Assembly (NCBI RefSeq): GCF_013340205.1
Contig: NZ_BJTG01000003.1
Span: 248,001 to 312,000 of the forward strand
Source of the DNA: Anaeromyxobacter diazotrophicus
Lineage (GTDB): Bacteria > Myxococcota > Myxococcia > Myxococcales > Anaeromyxobacteraceae
DNA length: 64,000 bases
Direction: 5' to 3'
Made by a program: the position numbers and the translations under genes. Below are positions 29,621 through 43,854 of the stretch, in pieces. The notes under the pieces are model-generated. The model was given only the letters and a program-made list of their open reading frames with translations, was not told the DNA's origin and searched no databases. The stretch's first letter is position 1. Each line of letters begins with the position of its first letter.

Positions 29621-31390
29621 GTGAGCGGGAGTCCCGAGGAGCTGCTCAGGAGCGCGCTCGAGAAGGTCATCTTCTTCGAGTGCCGGGTGGCGAGCCTCGA
29701 GCATGAGCTCGAGTCGGCGCGCGCCGCGGCGGCGCGCGCCCGGGACGAGGCCGGCGCGGCGCGGCGGCGCGAGGGCGAGCTGGAGGCGCAGCTCGCGCAG
29801 CTCAAGGGCGCGCAGGCGGCGGGCGCGGCGCAGAGCGGCGAGCTGGCCGAGCGCGTGCGGCTGCTCGAGGCGGAGCGCGAGCGGTTCCTCTCCGGCATGG
29901 TCGAGAGCGCGCGGGTCGCGGGCGCGCCCGCCGGCGAGGACGACGACGCCGGCAGCGCCTCCGAGCTGGCCGGCTTCATCGCGGAGCTGCGGGCGGAGAT
30001 CGAGGCCCTGCGCGCGTGGAAGCGCGAGGCGGAGGCGCGGGGGTACGCGCCGGGCGAGGCCGCGAGCGCGGATTCGAACGCGACCGCGACCTCGACCTCG
30101 ACCTCGACCTCGACCTCGACCTCGACCGCGAACGCGAACGCGAACGCGAACGCGGCGCCGCGGACCGGGCAGCCTTCGCCGGCCGGCGCGGGGGCGGGGC
30201 GCGGCGCCGTGGCCCTCCCAGCGATGGCGACCGCGTTCGAGCAGTCCGGCCGCATCACCGTCTCCGCCGCCGACGCGCGCGCGCTGCCGCGCTTCTCCAC
30301 CCGCTCCGAGCGCGCGCTCTACGAGTCCTGCCTCGACGACCTCGGCTCGCGCGAGCCGGGGACCCGCCGCCGCGCCGCGGACGGCCTGCGCGCGCTCGGC
30401 TCGCGGGGCGCCGCGCCGCTGGTGGCCGCCGCGCTCGGGCGCGAGGCCGACGCCGAGGTGAAGGCCTCGCTCCTGGCCGCGCTCGGCGCCCTGGCCGAGG
30501 CGAGCGCCTCGGACCTCGCGGTCCGCGAGCTCGCCGACCCGCGCCCGGCGGTGCGGGCGGCCGCCCTCGACGCGGTGAGCGCGCTCGCCGGTCCGCAGGC
30601 GGTCCCGGCGCTCTCCGGCGCGCTCGCCGACGCGAGCCCGCTCGTGCGGCGCCGCGCGGTGGTGCTGCTCGGCTTCGCGCGCGGCGAGCCGGCCGACGAC
30701 GCGCTCGCCGGCGCGCTCGCCGACCGCGACGCCGGCGTCGCCCGCGCCGCCGCCTCGGCGCTGGCGGGCCGCCCCAGCGCCCGGGCCCAGGGCGCGCTCG
30801 CCCGCGCGCTCGAGCACCGGGAGCCCGCGGTGCGCCGCGCGGCGGCCCTCGCCACCGGCCGCTGGTCGGGCGAGGCGGTCGACCCCGCCGCCCCCGAGGC
30901 GGAGCGCCGCCGCGCAGCCCGGCGCATCAGCGAGAAGCTGCTCGAGGTGGACGGCGAGGCGCTGCGGAGCGCGGTGACGAAGGTCGCCGCGGCTGTGGCC
31001 CACGCTCCCCGTCCCGCTCCCCCGGTGGGGGAGAGGGAGCCGATCCTCGCTGCGCCGGCTGCCCGCCGCGGTCCGCGCGCTCCATCCGCCTCTCCCGCGC
31101 AGGGAGAGCCTCGCGTCCCTGCTCGCGCACCCTCGCAGGGAGAGGGCGTGCGCCATGCGCTCGCCGCGGCGGCCGCGATGAAGTCGGCGGTGGCCGTCGC
31201 CGCGCCGGAGGAGCGCGCGCCGCTCGCCGCGGCCGCGCTGGCCGAGGTGCGCGCGGCGCTGCGGGGCCGGACCGCCGAGGAGCTGTCGGCCGCGCTCGGC
31301 GCGGAGCGCCTCACGATCGAATCCACCCTGCGCGCGCTCGTGACGCAAGGGCGGCTGGTGGCGCGCGGGCCGCGCTTCTTCATGAGCTAG
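29621..31390 (+). CDS. pomY: PomY-like division-site positioning protein (coiled coil + HEAT repeats)
   Basis: A 589-residue protein. GTG at 29621 has an excellent ribosome site (GGGAGG). The order is N-terminal coiled coil (~5-145), a low-complexity TS/NA-repeat linker (~157-180), HEAT repeats (~225-430, segments such as DPRPAVRAAALDAVSALAG and DASPLVRRRAVVLLGFARG), a Pro/Ala linker (~460-510) built from G/C palindromes, and a C-terminal winged-helix-like segment (EELSAALGAERL...ALVTQGRLVARG). M. xanthus PomY is known to combine coiled coil, HEAT repeats and a Pro-rich region, and in M. xanthus it acts with PomX and PomZ to place the FtsZ ring at midcell. Adjacent pomZ- and pomX-like genes support the call. 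The C-terminal winged-helix-like part is not something I recall from PomY. Confidence 0.75.
   Translation: MSGSPEELLRSALEKVIFFECRVASLEHELESARAAAARARDEAGAARRREGELEAQLAQLKGAQAAGAAQSGELAERVRLLEAERERFLSGMVESARVAGAPAGEDDDAGSASELAGFIAELRAEIEALRAWKREAEARGYAPGEAASADSNATATSTSTSTSTSTSTANANANANAAPRTGQPSPAGAGAGRGAVALPAMATAFEQSGRITVSAADARALPRFSTRSERALYESCLDDLGSREPGTRRRAADGLRALGSRGAAPLVAAALGREADAEVKASLLAALGALAEASASDLAVRELADPRPAVRAAALDAVSALAGPQAVPALSGALADASPLVRRRAVVLLGFARGEPADDALAGALADRDAGVARAAASALAGRPSARAQGALARALEHREPAVRRAAALATGRWSGEAVDPAAPEAERRRAARRISEKLLEVDGEALRSAVTKVAAAVAHAPRPAPPVGEREPILAAPAARRGPRAPSASPAQGEPRVPARAPSQGEGVRHALAAAAAMKSAVAVAAPEERAPLAAAALAEVRAALRGRTAEELSAALGAERLTIESTLRALVTQGRLVARGPRFFMS
30091..30150. 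repeat. Hexanucleotide microsatellite in the pomY-like gene
   Basis: Six perfect copies of CTCGAC (30091-30126) followed directly by four copies of CGCGAA (30127-30150). They encode Ser-Thr and Asn-Ala dipeptide runs in the linker between coiled coil and HEAT repeats. Because the unit is two codons, copy-number change would alter linker length without shifting the frame. Confidence 0.9.
31017..31108. repeat. Two intragenic palindromes in the pomY-like gene
   Basis: CTCCCCC-GGT-GGGGGAG (31017-31033) and CTCTCCC-GCGCA-GGGAGAG (31090-31108); a third half-site (CGCAGGGAGAGGGCG) ends near 31148. All lie in frame in the Pro/Ala linker and match the palindrome family seen elsewhere in the window. 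Confidence 0.75.
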
Positions 31391-31400
31391 GAGAGGCGCC

Positions 31401-32354
31401 ATGGAGAACATCCGCTACTCGCAGAAGCGCCTCGCCGAGATCCTCGGCGTCCCCGCCAAGCAGGTCGCCGAGGCGCTCGGCAAGCGCGACGGCTACGGCC
31501 CCGCCGAGCTGGCCGACGCGCGGCAGAAGCTCCGCCGCGTCCCGGCCCCCCGCGCGCGCCGGGTCCAGCTCTTCCTCAACTTCAAGGGCGGCACCGGCAA
31601 GACCAGCCTCTCCTCCTCCTACGCCTACCGCCTGGCCGAGCGCGGCCACCGCGTGCTCATGATCGACCTCGACAGCCAGGGGCACGCCACGAAGTGCCTC
31701 GGCAAGGAGGGGGCGAGCTTCCCGCGCACGCTGCACGACGTGCTCATCCGCAAGGCGCCGGTGGACGAGGTGACCATCGCCACCGGGATGCCCGGGCTCT
31801 CGCTCGTCCCGTCGAACCTCGCCATGAGCACCATCGACCTCGCGCTCATGCCGCTCGCCGGGCGCGAGTTCCGGCTGCGCAAGGCGCTGGAGGAGGTGCA
31901 GGCGAAGTACGACTTCGTGGTGATGGACGCGCCGCCGTCGTTCGGGCTCCTCAACCTGAACGCGCTCATGGCGGCCGACGACCTCGTCATCCCGGTGCTG
32001 GCCGACTTCCTCTCCTACGACGGGCTCCGGCTGCTCTTCGAGACCGTGCAGGGGCTGGAGGACGACCTCTCGCACCAGCTCGAGCACATCTTCATCGTGG
32101 TGAACGCCTTCAACCAGACCTTCAAGATCGCGCGCGAGGCGCTCGGCGCGCTCCGCGAGCACTACGCCGACTACGTGCTCGAGAGCGTGGTGCGCCAGTG
32201 CACCAAGTTCGCGCAGGCGTCGAGCGAGGGCTGCCCCATCTTCGCCTTCGACGCGGAGTCGAAGGGGGCGACCGACCTGGAGGCGGTCCTGGACGAGATC
32301 CAGGCCCGGGTGAGCGCGACGGCCAAGGCCGGCGCGGCGGGAGCGAGCCGATGA
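31401..32354 (+). CDS. pomZ: PomZ-like ParA/MinD-family ATPase
   Basis: A 317-residue ParA-type ATPase. An N-terminal extension (~1-50) with a helix-turn-helix-like segment (YSQKRLAEILGVPAKQVAEALG) precedes the deviant Walker A KGGTGKT (62-68), the switch segment MIDLDSQGHAT and a Walker B-like FVVMDAPPSFG. M. xanthus PomZ binds the nucleoid as an ATP dimer, and its ATPase is stimulated by PomX, PomY and DNA to translocate the cluster to midcell. Plasmid-type ParA is a possible alternative. No parB or parS-like repeats follow, and the flanking pomY- and pomX-like genes favour PomZ. The stop overlaps the next ATG (ATGA). Confidence 0.82.
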   Translation: MENIRYSQKRLAEILGVPAKQVAEALGKRDGYGPAELADARQKLRRVPAPRARRVQLFLNFKGGTGKTSLSSSYAYRLAERGHRVLMIDLDSQGHATKCLGKEGASFPRTLHDVLIRKAPVDEVTIATGMPGLSLVPSNLAMSTIDLALMPLAGREFRLRKALEEVQAKYDFVVMDAPPSFGLLNLNALMAADDLVIPVLADFLSYDGLRLLFETVQGLEDDLSHQLEHIFIVVNAFNQTFKIAREALGALREHYADYVLESVVRQCTKFAQASSEGCPIFAFDAESKGATDLEAVLDEIQARVSATAKAGAAGASR

Positions 32355-33370
32355 GGAAGGCCTTCGACGCGAACGTCCCCAAGTTCCGGCCGCGGCTCAA
32401 GACCGCGGTCGCGCCCGCGGGCGAGGCGGGGACCGCGGCCGAGACCGCGGCGCCGGCGGCGGAGGTGACCGCGGCCCCTCTCCCCGGCCCTCTCCCCGCT
32501 GCGCGGGGCGAGGGAGACCTCGGCGAGGTCGCTCACCCTTCCTCCACCCGCAAGGGCGAGGGAGACCTCAGCCCTGAAGACCGCACCCCTGAGAATCCCC
32601 CCTCTCCCCCCGCGGGGGAGAGGGCCGGGAGAGGGGGCAGCACCACGCGTGAACCCGCGCCCCCCGCGCAACCGGCGCTCGCCTTCTCGGAGCCCCCCGA
32701 CGTCGAGTCGCGCCGCGAGCGGCTCCTCGCCGTGAAGCGCAAGGTGGCGGCGGCGGTCCGGCCGGCGCCCCCCATGCCGGCGCTGCCGGAGACCCCGGCC
32801 CGCGCCGGGGAGAGCGCGCTCCTGCTGGTGAAGGACTTCGAGGCGCAGCTCACCCGCGCCCGCGAGGTGGAGACGGCCCTGCGCGCCGACCTCGACGACG
32901 CCCGCGCCGAGCTGGCGCGGGGCGCCAGCGAGGGGCGCCGCGCGGTGGAGCGGCTGGCCGCGGTCGAGCAGCAGCTCGAGGAGAAGCGCTCCGTCCTCGC
33001 GGAGATGCTGGACGAGCTGAGCGCGCTGGAGGAGGAGCGCGACGGCGCGGTGGCCCGGGCGCAGGCGCTCTCGGCGCTCGACGAGGAGCGGCAGGCGCTG
33101 CTCGACGCCGTCACCGCCCGCGCCGAGCAGGCGGAGCGGGCGCGCGCCGAGGGCGAGGCCGAGCTCGGCCGGCTCGGGGCGGAGCTCGACGAGCGCGCCG
33201 CCGACCTGGCGCGCCTGCGCGCGGCGCTGGCGCAGGTGACGCGCGAGCGGGACGACCTCTCGCGCGAGCTGGGCGAGGCGCGCCGCGAGCGCGACGAGCT
33301 CGCCGAGGCGCGGCGCGCGCTGGAGCAGGTGCACGAGGCGCTCGCCACCGCGCGGGCGCGGCTGGGGTAG
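32351..33370 (+). CDS. pomX: PomX-like scaffold protein (PomZ-activating N-terminal peptide + coiled coil)
   Basis: A 339-residue protein with three parts. First, an N-terminal peptide MRKAFDANVPKFRPRLKT; as I remember the M. xanthus PomX N-terminus, it has the same MxKAFxxNVxxxxPRL layout, where K13 and R15 are reported to activate the PomZ ATPase. Here the positions are R13 and R15. Second, an Ala/Pro/Glu-rich linker (~20-150) containing G/C palindromes read in frame (LPGPLPAARGEGD and PSPPAGERAGRGG). Third, a long Glu/Arg/Leu coiled coil (~160-339). In M. xanthus PomX polymerises through the coiled coil and recruits PomY. The order pomY-pomZ-pomX and the overlap with pomZ support the assignment. 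Confidence 0.8.
   Translation: MRKAFDANVPKFRPRLKTAVAPAGEAGTAAETAAPAAEVTAAPLPGPLPAARGEGDLGEVAHPSSTRKGEGDLSPEDRTPENPPSPPAGERAGRGGSTTREPAPPAQPALAFSEPPDVESRRERLLAVKRKVAAAVRPAPPMPALPETPARAGESALLLVKDFEAQLTRAREVETALRADLDDARAELARGASEGRRAVERLAAVEQQLEEKRSVLAEMLDELSALEEERDGAVARAQALSALDEERQALLDAVTARAEQAERARAEGEAELGRLGAELDERAADLARLRAALAQVTRERDDLSRELGEARRERDELAEARRALEQVHEALATARARLG
32488..32518. repeat. Intragenic G/C palindrome, pomX-like gene copy A
   Basis: 31 bp centred on CCCCGCTGCGCGGGG. Three differences from 2225-2255 in the czcB-like gene, but read in a different frame. Confidence 0.75.
32600..32624. repeat. Intragenic G/C palindrome, pomX-like gene copy B
   Basis: Perfect 11-bp arms CCCTCTCCCCC and GGGGGAGAGGG around CGC. 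With the following CCGGGAGAGGGGG half-site it nearly duplicates 42886-42927 in dapE. It is translated as PSPPAGERAGRGG. Confidence 0.8.
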
Positions 33371-33614
33371 CGTCCACCCGGCAGCGACCTGGATGGCTGA
33401 AATTCCGGGCGGTTGAGCGGGGTGCCGCGCCACCCGCCGCGCGCGGGGCGCCGGGCGCTGGATACACTGTAGGTCATCACCGTGCATTGACACTTTGTCG
33501 CACGCCTCTCTACGCTGCGTGGAGAGGTTCGCGCATGCGCCAAGTTGCGACGAGGGGACCGACGTACCGCCGCCGACCTGGGTCGGCGCGACCTGCGGCG
33601 GAACGGCGCGCCTC
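33371..33614. other. Promoter region of the roadblock/kinase operon
   Basis: No gene supported in this 244-bp gap. TTGACA (33487-33492) with an 18-bp spacer and TACGCT (33511-33516) is a reasonable sigma-70-type promoter. It makes the ATG at 33615 the first usable start; the open frame upstream overlaps the promoter. Confidence 0.55.
33487..33516 (+). promoter_or_regulatory. Sigma-70-type promoter of the signalling operon
   Basis: Consensus TTGACA at 33487-33492, 18-bp spacer, TACGCT at 33511-33516 (T, A and final T match). Predicted leader about 95 nt. Confidence 0.5.
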
Positions 33615-35555
33615 ATGAGCCGCGCCCCGCTCTTCGAAGGCCTGACCGAGGTGCGGGGCACGCTCGGCGCGGATCTGCGCGGGCAGCTCACCGCGCCGAT
33701 CACCGGCGACGCCGGGCTGACCCGGGAGCACGCGGGCGCCATGGCCATCGCCCTCGCCGAGCTGGGGGCGCTGGGCGAGACCGCGGGCCTCGGCCAGCTC
33801 GAGCTCGTCGTCGCCGGGGCGCCCACGCGGCAGCTCGTGGCGGCGCCCCGCGCCGGCGCGTTCCTGATGGTGGCGGTCGATCCCGCCAAGCCCACCTCGC
33901 GGGTGGAGAAGGCGCTGCGGGACGGGTCGCCCGCGCCGGCCTCCGGCCCGGCCTCCTCCGCGCCGCCGCCGCTCCCGGTCGCGCCCGCGCAGCGCGATCC
34001 CTGGGCCGCCCTGCGCCTCGCCCTCGCGCGCGGGCAGCTCGCCGAGGCGGCCGCCTGCCAGCGCGACCTGGGCCAGGCGCCGCCGGGGGCCGGCGCCGAG
34101 CCGCTCGAGCCGGCCGAGCGCGAGCGCGCGCTGGCCACCCTCCTCGACGCAGTCGCGACCGCCCAGGCGGGCGACGTGGTCGGCTGCGCGCGCAAGCTGC
34201 AGGATCTGGCGCGCCCGGCGCAGGCGAACCTCTCCTTGCGCTGGGCCGCCCACCACTGGACCGGGCGCGCCGCGCTGCAGGGCGGCAGCCTCGACGCCGC
34301 CCGGACCCACGCCAAGGAGGCGCTGACGCTGTCGCGCCAGCTCGACGGCGCCGCCAAGGCGGTGAGCCAGTGGTTCGCCGGGGAGCTGCTGTCGCGGAGC
34401 GCCGACGCGAGCCAGGGGCTGCGCTGGCTGGCCGAGGCGCGGGCCGCGTTCGCGCGGCTGGGCGAGGGCTGGGCCGTCGCGCGCACCTGGCTGGCCGAGG
34501 CGCGCATCCACGCCGCGGGCCACGACGAGGCGAGCGCGGCCGGGGCGGCGCGGCGCGCGCTCGAGGCGGACGCCACCTTCGAGGAGCCGGCGCTGTTCCT
34601 CGCGCGCCGCGCCCTCGCCCGGGGAGACCTGGCCGCTGCCGAGCTGGAGCTCCCGCCGCAGGGGAGCGTGGCGGCCGGCTGCGCCCGCGCGCTCCTCGAC
34701 GTCGTGCGCGCGGGCCAGGTCACGCAGGCCGAGGTGACCGAGCTCGTCCACCAGGAGGAGCTCCCGCCTTCGGCCGCCACCCTGCACGCGCTGGAGCGGC
34801 TCGCCAACGCAGCCCCCACCTTCGCCCAGGCGCGCGCGGCGCTCGGGTGGGCGCTCCTGCGCAGGGGGAAGTACGCCGAGGCGAGCGTGGTGCTCCGGGT
34901 GCTCCTCGGTCAGCAGCTCGCGCCGGCGGTGCGCGCCTCGGTGGAGGCGGCCCTCGCCTGCGCCACCCGCGCCCTGCCCGCCCCCGAGGGCGTGCCGGTG
35001 CTGGCGCGGAGCGCCCCGGCCACTCCCGCGCCGGCCCCCACCCCGCGGCCGGGGGCGGTCTTCTCCGGCCAGCTCAGCGTCTTCGCGCTCCCCGACCTGC
35101 TCGAGTTCCTCCGCGCCGGGAAGCGCACCGGGCTCCTCACCTTCAGCGGCGCGGCCGGGCTGGGCTCCTTGCGCTTCAACGCCGGCCGGATCACCGGGGC
35201 GAGCTCGCCCGCGGCGCCCGGGCTGGGGCAGCTCCTCGTGCAGGAGCGGAAGGTCACCCCGCTCACGCTCCGCGCGGCCGCCTCCGCGCAGGACGACTCC
35301 GACGAGGCGCTCGGCGCGCGGCTGGTGCGCGACGGCGCGGTGCCCGTCGCCGCGGTCGAGGACGCGCTCCGGCGCGGCGTCGAGCTCGCGGTGCGCGAGC
35401 TGGTCGGGTGGAAGGAGGGCGAGTTCGCCTTCGAGGAGACCGCGCCCGCGCCGCCGGCGCGGCCCGGCGTCGAGCTGGATCCCCAGGGCGTGCTCCTCAA
35501 CATCTTCAAGGAGCTGGACGAGTCGAGCCGGCCCGCCGCCGCTCGCCAGCCCTGA
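33615..35555 (+). CDS. Roadblock-like / TPR-like / DUF4388 (PATAN) signalling protein
   Basis: A 646-residue cytoplasmic protein. Residues ~1-110 (EGLTEVRGTLGADL ... LELVVAGAPTRQLVAAPRAG) have the roadblock/LC7 layout also seen in the next two genes. Residues ~125-455 are Ala/Leu-rich paired helices resembling TPRs (segments GRAALQGGSLDAARTHAKEA and LGWALLRRGKYAEASVV). After a Pro linker, ~480-640 is a DUF4388/PATAN domain (GQLSVFALPDLLEFLRAGKR then TGLLTFSGAAGLGSLRFNAG), common in delta-proteobacterial and cyanobacterial signalling. It is the first gene of the operon, 9 bp before the kinase gene, and probably acts in the same pathway. Start chosen for position behind the promoter; the ribosome site is weak. 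Confidence 0.8.
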   Translation: MSRAPLFEGLTEVRGTLGADLRGQLTAPITGDAGLTREHAGAMAIALAELGALGETAGLGQLELVVAGAPTRQLVAAPRAGAFLMVAVDPAKPTSRVEKALRDGSPAPASGPASSAPPPLPVAPAQRDPWAALRLALARGQLAEAAACQRDLGQAPPGAGAEPLEPAERERALATLLDAVATAQAGDVVGCARKLQDLARPAQANLSLRWAAHHWTGRAALQGGSLDAARTHAKEALTLSRQLDGAAKAVSQWFAGELLSRSADASQGLRWLAEARAAFARLGEGWAVARTWLAEARIHAAGHDEASAAGAARRALEADATFEEPALFLARRALARGDLAAAELELPPQGSVAAGCARALLDVVRAGQVTQAEVTELVHQEELPPSAATLHALERLANAAPTFAQARAALGWALLRRGKYAEASVVLRVLLGQQLAPAVRASVEAALACATRALPAPEGVPVLARSAPATPAPAPTPRPGAVFSGQLSVFALPDLLEFLRAGKRTGLLTFSGAAGLGSLRFNAGRITGASSPAAPGLGQLLVQERKVTPLTLRAAASAQDDSDEALGARLVRDGAVPVAAVEDALRRGVELAVRELVGWKEGEFAFEETAPAPPARPGVELDPQGVLLNIFKELDESSRPAAARQP

Positions 35556-35564
35556 CCGCGACCG

Positions 35565-36896
35565 ATGCCCGACGCCAACGCCCGCGAGCCCTCGGACCTC
35601 GCCAAGCTGGTCGGCACCCGGCTCGGGAACTACCGGCTGGAGCGCCTGGTCGGGCGCGGGCGCATGGGCGCGGTGTACCTCGCGCAGGACGAGGCGCTCC
35701 TGCGGCCCACCGCCGTGAAGGTCCTCGCCTGGAGCGCCGCCGAGGCGCGCGGCCACGATCCGGTGAAGTGGTTCCTGGCCGAGGCGCGGCTGGTGGCCCG
35801 CATCAACCACCCGCGCGTGGTGCAGATCTACGGCGCGGCCCGGCAGGGCGACCGCTGCTACATCGCGATGGAGTACGTCGCCGGCGCCTCCGCGGAGGCG
35901 CTGGTGGCCGAGTGCGGGGCGCTCCCGCCCGCCCGCGCGACCGACCTCCTCGTCCAGGCGGCGGCGGCGCTGGAGGCGGCCCACCGCTGCGGCGTGGTCC
36001 ACCGCGACGTGAAGCCGGCCAACCTCCTCATCGGCCCCGAGGGGTCGGTGAAGCTGGGCGACTTCGGGATGGCGCTCGGCTCGGCCGGCATCCGCACCGC
36101 GCACGCGCACCTCAGGGTCGGGACGCCGTACTACACCGCGCCCGAGATCTGGCGGGGCGAGGCGGCCACGCCCGCGTCGGACCTCTACTCGCTCGGCGCG
36201 ACCTACTTCCAGCTCCTCACCGGCCGGCCGCCGTACCCCGCCCACGACGTGGCGGCGGTGGAGCAGGCGCACCTCGGCGCGGCGGTGCCGGATCCGCGCG
36301 AGCTCGTCCCGGGCCTGCCCGCCGCGTGCGCCGCGCTCGCGATGCGCGCCCTGGCCAAGTCGCCGCGCGAGCGCCCGGCGTCGGCCGAGGCGCTCGGCAA
36401 GGAGGCGCGGCGGGTGCTGCGGGAGCTCGCGGCCGCGCCGCCCCCGCCGCCCGAGCCGGCGCGGGCCGCCGCGCCGCCGCGGGCCACGGCCGCGCCGGTC
36501 CGGACGGCTCCCAGACCTGCCGCGGGGGCGGCCACCGGCCGGACCGGAGGAAGAGGGGAAGGCGTCATGACGCTGCTCGCGACCATCTCGAGCCTGCCGG
36601 AGGTGAAGGGCGCCGTGCTCGGCACCTCGGCCGGCGCGTTCGTGGACACCGCCGGGGAGGCGGACGGGGAGGCGGTGGCGGCGGTGATGGGGTTCATGTG
36701 GACGGCGCTGAGCGAGGCCGGCGAGCAGCTCGGGCTCGGGGCGCTCGGCCGCATCTCGCTGTCGGGCGCCACCGGCGCCTGCGTGGCCACCGCCGAGCCG
36801 GACGGCACCGTGCTGTCCGCGCTGGTCGAGCCGGCCGGGTCGCTCGTCGCCGTCGAGAAGGTCCTCGACGACGCCCTCTCGCGGAACGGAGCGTGA
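35565..36896 (+). CDS. Ser/Thr protein kinase fused to a roadblock/LC7 domain
   Basis: A 443-residue Hanks-type kinase. It has the Gly loop GRGRMGAVYLA, catalytic Lys52 (AVKV), Glu73, the catalytic loop HRDVKPANLL (146-155), DFG (166-168) and APE (192-194), all intact. The HRD Arg suggests activation-loop control. There is no transmembrane helix. A Pro/Ala linker (~285-330) leads to a roadblock/LC7 domain (335-443). An internal ATG at 36567 (codon 335) follows GGAGGAAGAGGGGAAGG, a strong ribosome site, and starts exactly at the roadblock domain. The gene may therefore make both the fusion and a free roadblock protein. It is followed by a separate roadblock gene after 1 bp. Confidence 0.9.
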   Translation: MPDANAREPSDLAKLVGTRLGNYRLERLVGRGRMGAVYLAQDEALLRPTAVKVLAWSAAEARGHDPVKWFLAEARLVARINHPRVVQIYGAARQGDRCYIAMEYVAGASAEALVAECGALPPARATDLLVQAAAALEAAHRCGVVHRDVKPANLLIGPEGSVKLGDFGMALGSAGIRTAHAHLRVGTPYYTAPEIWRGEAATPASDLYSLGATYFQLLTGRPPYPAHDVAAVEQAHLGAAVPDPRELVPGLPAACAALAMRALAKSPRERPASAEALGKEARRVLRELAAAPPPPPEPARAAAPPRATAAPVRTAPRPAAGAATGRTGGRGEGVMTLLATISSLPEVKGAVLGTSAGAFVDTAGEADGEAVAAVMGFMWTALSEAGEQLGLGALGRISLSGATGACVATAEPDGTVLSALVEPAGSLVAVEKVLDDALSRNGA

Positions 36897-42706: not shown

Positions 42707-43854
42707 CCGGCCCGGGCGCGCTCGGCGAGGCGCTGGCGGCGCGGACCGAGGCGCTCTGCGCGGTCCGCTCCGTCATCGGCGAGGAGCGCGCCCTGTGCGA
42801 CGCCCTGGAGCGGGAGGCGCGCGCGCGCTTCCCGGCGGTGGAGCGGGTCAAGAACTCGCTGGTGGTCTGGGTCGATGCTCCACCCCCCTCCTCTCCCCCC
42901 CCGGGGGAGAGGGCCGGGGAGAGGGGGCGCGCCGCCACGGATCGCCCGCTGGTCCTCCTCTGCGGCCACCTCGACACCGTCCCCATCCACGCCGCCGACG
43001 AGGGGCGCTTTCCCCGCCGCGAGGGCGAGCGGCTCGTCGCGCCCGGCGCCTCCGACATGAAGAGCGGGGTGGCGGTGGCGCTCGAGCTCGCGGAGCGCCT
43101 CCCCCGCGCCGGGCGCGACCTCGACCTGGGGCTCGTGCTCTACGCGCGGGAAGAAGGGCCCTTCGAGGAGAACGAGCTCGGCGATCTGCTGCGCGACGTG
43201 CCCGCGCTGCGCGGCGCCGCGCTCGCCGTCTGCCTCGAGCCGACCGACGGCGCGGTCCAGCTCGGCTGCGTCGGCTCCCTGCACGCCACCGTCACCTTCA
43301 CCGGCCGCTCGGCGCACTCGGCCCGGCCCTGGCACGGCGAGAACGCGGTGCACAAGGCGGGGGCGCTCCTCGCGCACCTGGCCGGCCGCGCGCCGCGGGA
43401 GGCGGTGAGCGGCGGCCTCGTCTTCCGCGAGGTGATCTCCGCCACCCGCATCGAGGGCGGCCGGGCCCGCAACGTCGTCCCCGACCGCTGCACGCTCAAC
43501 CTCAACTTCCGCTTCGCCCCCGACAAGAGCCTCGAGGCCGCGGCGGAGGAGCTCCGCGCCCTCGCCCGCGACCACGGCGGGGCTGCGGAGGTCACCGATC
43601 TCTCGCCCGCGTGCCCGCCCTGGGCCGACCACCCCCTGGTGCGCCGCCTCCTCGCGCGCACCGGGGCCGCCGCCGAGCCGAAGCAGGCGTGGACCGACGT
43701 GGCGCGCCTGGCGCAGGCGGGGATCCCGGCCGTGAACTTCGGCCCGGGCGCGACCTCGCAGGCGCACCAGGCCGGCGAGTGGGTGGAGCTCGCCGCGATC
43801 GAGCGGTGCTACCGGGCGCTCGAGGCGTTCCTGCGCGCGACCCCGGCGGCCTGA
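42703..43854 (+). CDS. dapE: Succinyl-diaminopimelate desuccinylase (M20 family)
   Basis: A ~383-residue M20 metallopeptidase. Metal-site segments are GHLDTVPIH, APGASDMKSG and REEGPFEENE. The dimerisation domain and the final GPGATSQAHQ are present. The N-terminus needed by the family begins right after the dapD stop, with no in-frame ATG, GTG or TTG until codon ~46. A CTG overlapping the TGA as CTGA (42703) is therefore the likely start, helped by coupling; this is uncertain. A G/C palindrome adds about 20 residues (PPPSSPPPGERAGERGR) between two conserved strands. It removes succinate from N-succinyl-LL-DAP. The order dapC-dapD-dapE completes the branch. Confidence 0.85.
   Translation: MTGPGALGEALAARTEALCAVRSVIGEERALCDALEREARARFPAVERVKNSLVVWVDAPPPSSPPPGERAGERGRAATDRPLVLLCGHLDTVPIHAADEGRFPRREGERLVAPGASDMKSGVAVALELAERLPRAGRDLDLGLVLYAREEGPFEENELGDLLRDVPALRGAALAVCLEPTDGAVQLGCVGSLHATVTFTGRSAHSARPWHGENAVHKAGALLAHLAGRAPREAVSGGLVFREVISATRIEGGRARNVVPDRCTLNLNFRFAPDKSLEAAAEELRALARDHGGAAEVTDLSPACPPWADHPLVRRLLARTGAAAEPKQAWTDVARLAQAGIPAVNFGPGATSQAHQAGEWVELAAIERCYRALEAFLRATPAA
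42886..42931. repeat. Intragenic G/C palindrome in dapE
   Basis: Core arms CCTCTCCCCC and GGGGGAGAGG (42890-42912) with a CCC loop, plus a trailing CCGGGGAGAGGGGG. It is nearly the same as 32597-32637 in the pomX-like gene. It encodes a hydrophilic loop in the catalytic domain. Confidence 0.8.

Follow-up and report, generated by a model that had tools for sequence, protein, structure and literature searches.

The 64,000-nucleotide stretch of Anaeromyxobacter diazotrophicus DNA analysed here (the window) contains three coupled open reading frames that form a single operon-like run in the order pomY-pomZ-pomX, which is also the order at the Myxococcus xanthus locus (L080, strain AM003). The positions and bounds assigned to them in the first-pass annotation, which was made from the sequence alone, were correct, and the GTG start of pomY agrees with the conserved N-terminus of its orthologues (window VSGSPEELLRSALEKV, M. 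xanthus VSDERPDALLKSALEKI). The features of the locus are collected in Table 1. An MFS gene lies upstream of pomY, as at the other Anaeromyxobacter Pom loci where the flank could be compared. Downstream of pomX, a DUF4388 protein and a protein kinase are encoded; neither is a conserved pom neighbour in the loci compared.

Table 1. Features of the pom locus and of its surroundings. Positions are counted from the first letter of the window.
Feature	Position	Strand	Residues	Remark
pomY	29621-31390	+		GTG start at 29621
PomY coiled-coil helices			5-139	
PomY low-complexity linker				between coiled coil and HEAT repeats
Simple-repeat DNA in pomY	30089-30154			encodes (ST)n, then (NA)n, in the PomY linker
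PomY HEAT repeats			about 199-461	
PomY disordered linker			470-529	
KSAVAVA, copy of the pre-gD motif	31181-31201	+	521-527	sequence comparison
gD winged-helix domain of PomY	31208-31387	+	530-589	model; 39% identity to M. xanthus gD
pomZ	31401-32354	+		ATG start at 31401, 10 nt past the pomY stop
PomZ N-terminal HTH-like region			1-45	predicted structure; small domain
pomX	32351-33370	+		ATG start at 32351, 4 nt overlap with the pomZ stop
PomX N-peptide core MRKAFDANVPKFRPRL	32351-32398	+		R13, R15; PomZ-activating peptide
PomX disordered region				Ala/Pro-rich
REP-like palindromic DNA	32471-32641	+		arms 32471-32514 and 32598-32641; read in frame in the PomX disordered region
PomX coiled coil				C-terminal
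DUF4388 protein and protein kinase	33594-36893			downstream of pomX
Second in-frame REP-like copy	42875-42940			DapE-like gene

Across 146 Myxococcota genomes, the PomZ orthologues matched at E<=1e-107 while no other ParA did better than 4e-48, and the gap between these two groups of sequence scores is far beyond chance. The window PomZ is a ParA/MinD ATPase of the orthologous group, distinct from the other ParAs, and is 62% identical to M. xanthus PomZ, without a close rival in this one-way comparison. The Walker residues G63, K67 and D91 are kept, as is the position of K268. In the PomZ tree the protein clusters with that of Anaeromyxobacter sp. RBG_16_69_14 (85% identity), the two lying in an Anaeromyxobacter-type clade of 16 rows with full support. 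PomY gave reciprocal best hits with its M. xanthus counterpart (E=3e-24 and 4e-27). PomX of the window had a single match in the M. xanthus genome, at the pomX locus (E=2e-14), and M. xanthus PomX had a single match in the whole genome of the window's host, at the window locus (E=1e-13). PomX and PomY are both only about 36-37% identical to their M. xanthus counterparts over the alignable residues. Reciprocal best hits thus bear out the naming of the genes as pomY, pomZ and pomX, together with the domain architecture, the conservation of the PomX N-terminal peptide and the linkage of the three genes in the order of the PomXYZ division-site system.

The same searches bear on the reading that the locus encodes an unrelated ParA partition or cargo-positioning system of the plasmid ParABS type, Pom-like in appearance only. 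The best solved structural matches of PomZ are ParA folds, among them type Ia ParA, which has an N-terminal HTH; this speaks for that reading, but all curated NCBIfam partition models fell below their cut-offs for PomZ and all three proteins have the M. xanthus Pom locus as best match. In place of an ATPase passing a ParA/RepA/SopA model and paired with ParB, the locus holds a PomZ linked to PomX and PomY, and it is chromosomal, lying on a 580-kb contig of a 4.83 Mb genome. The plasmid ParA reading was therefore rejected on the sub-cut-off partition models and the best matches to M. xanthus Pom, and its probability is negligible. A MinCDE system would have both MinC and MinE in the genome; no match to PF03775 or PF03776 was found in this genome, which is rated 100% complete and in which control families were detected.

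An HTH-like extension at the N-terminus of PomZ had been listed as an oddity of this locus. M. xanthus PomZ has the same region, as do all the other PomZ rows that were aligned. When the predicted PomZ structure was compared with solved structures, type Ia ParAs aligned from PomZ residue 1 (P1 ParA, 3ez2: Z 26.8, rmsd 3.3 over 305 residues; Vibrio cholerae ParA2, 7npe: Z 28.6, rmsd 2.7 over 301 residues), whereas Soj-type ParAs aligned only from about residue 51. The type Ia proteins share with PomZ the ATPase fold and the N-terminal HTH region, but they are 17% identical to it and have ParB as partner, where PomZ has PomX and PomY. A Pfam scan of the isolated PomZ N-terminus returned sub-threshold HTH matches only, and the term HTH is not applied to PomZ in PMC13170346. 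All PomZ proteins may have this N-terminal HTH without its having been remarked on, and it is not special to the window locus.

PomX of the window consists of an N-terminal peptide with positive residues at positions 13 and 15, a disordered region and a C-terminal coiled coil. Its N-terminus had been read correctly, with R13 and R15, and had been described as an altered PomZ-activating peptide. In M. xanthus the positive charge of K13 and R15 is essential, as demonstrated by alanine changes (PMC7993993); in the window both charges are kept. Among 76 PomX N-termini, F5, N8 and P14 are kept in 75 of the 76 Pom loci. In 75 of these loci position 13 is lysine in 46 and arginine in 29, and position 15 is arginine in 71 and lysine in 4. 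The remaining N-terminus (L102, and L144, which is probably the same record) reads MAKWGFDENVSRVKPHLK; it is one residue longer at the N-terminus, and K and H stand where K13 and R15 would be.

A functionally altered peptide would mean that R13 shifts the strength or specificity of PomZ activation and that PomZ has co-adapted. The difference from M. xanthus K13 speaks for this, as do differences at two PomZ residues modelled to contact the peptide, F205 (Tyr) and E248 (Gly). Of the 13 PomZ residues modelled in contact with the N-peptide (PMC13170346), 7 are identical in the window, 5 are conservatively replaced and 1, E248, is clearly different. R13 is, however, shared by 29 of the 75 loci, and the PomZ tree shows at least 12 switches between K and R at this position. 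Both residues occur inside the genus Anaeromyxobacter (A. oryzae K, A. soli R), and the charge is kept. Tyrosine at F205 is found in 16 of 80 PomZ rows, a number equal to that of the rows in the Anaeromyxobacter-type clade, where K13 and R13 both occur. Because K13 and R13 interchange commonly across Pom loci, even within Anaeromyxobacter, the peptide is not meaningfully altered: as judged from its sequence, it carries no alteration of a kind that would predict changed function. Altered activation was accordingly rejected on the frequency and repeated origin of R13, and we consider it very improbable.

The REP-like palindromic DNA within pomX has a 19-base core that was found in 18 copies in the genome by pattern search, against 0 for a reversed control. 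This DNA was probably inserted into pomX; the disordered regions of relatives do not align there, and those of PomX from other Anaeromyxobacter do not align to the window's. A codon-position test of the REP copies inside genes did not cleanly separate coding from non-coding copies. The second in-frame copy in the window falls in a loop of the DapE-like protein that immediately precedes its conserved LCGHLDTVP motif.

PomY of the window has the coiled coil, HEAT repeats, disordered linker and C-terminal globular domain (gD) of a PomY protein. The HEAT repeats were detected with Pfam PF13646 (E=5e-13) and are also seen in the predicted structure, as a HEAT fold match. The gD segment is predicted to fold as H-H-H-E-E with pLDDT 90-97. 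The first-pass annotation had taken this winged helix for a departure from M. xanthus, but M. xanthus PomY has been reported to end in gD, a winged-helix fold that did not bind DNA in the authors' assay (PMC13170346, 2026). The idea of an addition to PomY was thereby rejected: M. xanthus has the domain too, and most orthologues end in it. The simple-repeat DNA of pomY is a separate observation. Comparable ST/PT runs are present in the PomY linkers of L039 and L041, which suggests that these linkers grow by microsatellites.

The linker of M. xanthus PomY contains alpha5, a nine-residue helix modelled to contact PomZ and described in nine orthologues (PMC13170346). In our comparison, only one clade had the alpha5 sequence VQ[AE]ALVAM; it comprises Myxococcus, Corallococcus, Pyxidicoccus, Citreicoccus and a single related MAG. 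The exact M. xanthus sequence (VQAALVAM) is absent from the PomY linker of the window, which holds a loose VRHALAAAAAM (residues 510-520) followed by KSAVAVA; alpha5 is not universal in Pom systems. Since the window PomY is without the exact alpha5, its contact with PomZ may differ from that in M. xanthus.

A second motif, R-x(0-2)-VAV-(A)V-[LV]E, was found 4-14 residues before gD in 25 of 50 PomY proteins without alpha5 and, at that place, in 0 of 19 with alpha5. It is carried by the window, L039-L043, L046-L048, L051, L053, L061, L064, L071, L074 and L077, and further by L085, L089, L090, L094-L096, L098, L099 and L109. Within Anaeromyxobacteraceae 10 of 14 loci carry it, compared with 0.1 expected from shuffled segments (maximum 2 in 2000 shuffles), and among the other loci without alpha5 the figure is 15 of 36, compared with 0.4 expected (maximum 3 in 2000 shuffles); these counts are not fully blind, as the pattern was shaped on sequences already inspected, some of them outside Anaeromyxobacteraceae. 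Nor are the counts independent, related sequences sharing ancestry; the surrounding linker, however, is not conserved. Elsewhere in the same linkers the pattern has a single occurrence (10,324 residues), and the PomX disordered regions likewise contain one (12,779 residues). Three alpha5-bearing PomY proteins, including that of M. xanthus, have a similar string further upstream. The idea that the motif is a strand of the gD fold found no support: no strand is predicted there, and pLDDT is under 50 or borders on it.

On the PomZ side, the alpha5-cleft residues L139, L146, F180, L182, L185, L210 and D221 are identical in 80 of 80 PomZ rows, whose partner PomY proteins are with or without alpha5; A147 of the cleft is variable among the same rows. 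Tentatively, the pre-gD motif might replace alpha5 in PomZ binding. The PomY linker could then have two alternative PomZ-contacting motifs, alpha5 in the Myxococcus/Corallococcus clade and RVAVAV[LV]E in Anaeromyxobacteraceae and several other Myxococcaceae lineages, a model suggested by sequence comparison that we hold to be possible and rather unlikely. Another reading is that the cleft residues of PomZ are kept for structure and that the pre-gD motif binds something else. As a lead from comparison, the motif looks new.

The window locus and the M. xanthus locus have in common the gene order, three orthologous proteins, the N-peptide, the coiled coils, the HEAT repeats, gD and the PomZ HTH. 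The window locus differs in having R13 instead of K13, shorter PomX and PomY proteins, no exact alpha5, a VAV motif directly before gD and REP-like DNA in pomX. Pom loci of other Anaeromyxobacter species (A. oryzae, A. soli, A. terrae and A. oryzisoli; L040, L042-L044) encode the same three proteins as the window. L040, L042 and L043 have the pre-gD motif as in the window, and A. oryzisoli gave no match to the pattern used; A. oryzae has K13 where the window has R13.

These comparisons show directly that the locus is orthologous to that of M. xanthus, with the same gene order and domain architecture, and that the peptide is conserved together with most of its modelled contact residues. The preferred reading, to which we give a probability of about 96%, is that an Anaeromyxobacter relative here carries its pomYZX operon, an orthologue of M. 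xanthus PomXYZ that most likely works by the mechanism described for M. xanthus. The low identity of PomX and PomY to their M. xanthus counterparts and the missing exact alpha5 count against this reading. The identity proposed in the first-pass annotation thus stood, and the differences claimed for the locus (the altered peptide, the extra PomY winged helix and the PomZ HTH oddity) did not. The locus is an Anaeromyxobacter-type version of the known PomX/PomY/PomZ system, and is itself ordinary because the supposed peptide alteration is a common, conservative Lys/Arg swap.

By analogy with M. xanthus, PomX filaments would build a scaffold via the coiled coil, on which PomY would condense. ATP-bound PomZ dimers would tether the PomX/Y cluster to the nucleoid, and their ATP hydrolysis would be stimulated by the C-terminal region of PomY as well as by the PomX N-peptide, here with R13 and R15, so that the cluster would move over the nucleoid to midcell. 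There, PomY would promote formation of the FtsZ ring. ATPase stimulation, condensation and midcell positioning are thus expected in the window organism from the M. xanthus model; a literature search found no experimental work on Pom in the genus Anaeromyxobacter.

Some Pom loci outside this genus depart further from M. xanthus. Three genomes outside the window's class, G020 (L140), G026 (L141) and G012 (L142), encode a PomZ orthologue and a PomX-like peptide. The peptide of G020, MKNAFDQNVPRLRPLGG, has R13 and a leucine at position 15. In G026 and G012, and likewise in L056, L058, L067 and L082, which are soil MAGs belonging to the Myxococcus order, no gD can be recognised at the end of the PomY encoded upstream of PomZ; all of these are draft assemblies, in which assembly error is possible. 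In M. xanthus, gD is necessary for the activation of PomZ by PomY (PMC13170346).

As a locus, the pom operon of the window only adds one further genome to a known system. The comparison shows lysine and arginine replacing each other freely at position 13, an essential residue of the PomX peptide. PomY proteins apparently without gD, and a PomX without the second essential positive residue, offer natural tests of the M. xanthus dual-activator model. If the proposed replacement of alpha5 were true, the second activator of PomZ would have acquired a different contact peptide against an unchanged PomZ surface, and the pre-gD motif provides a testable candidate for the PomY-PomZ contact in lineages without alpha5.
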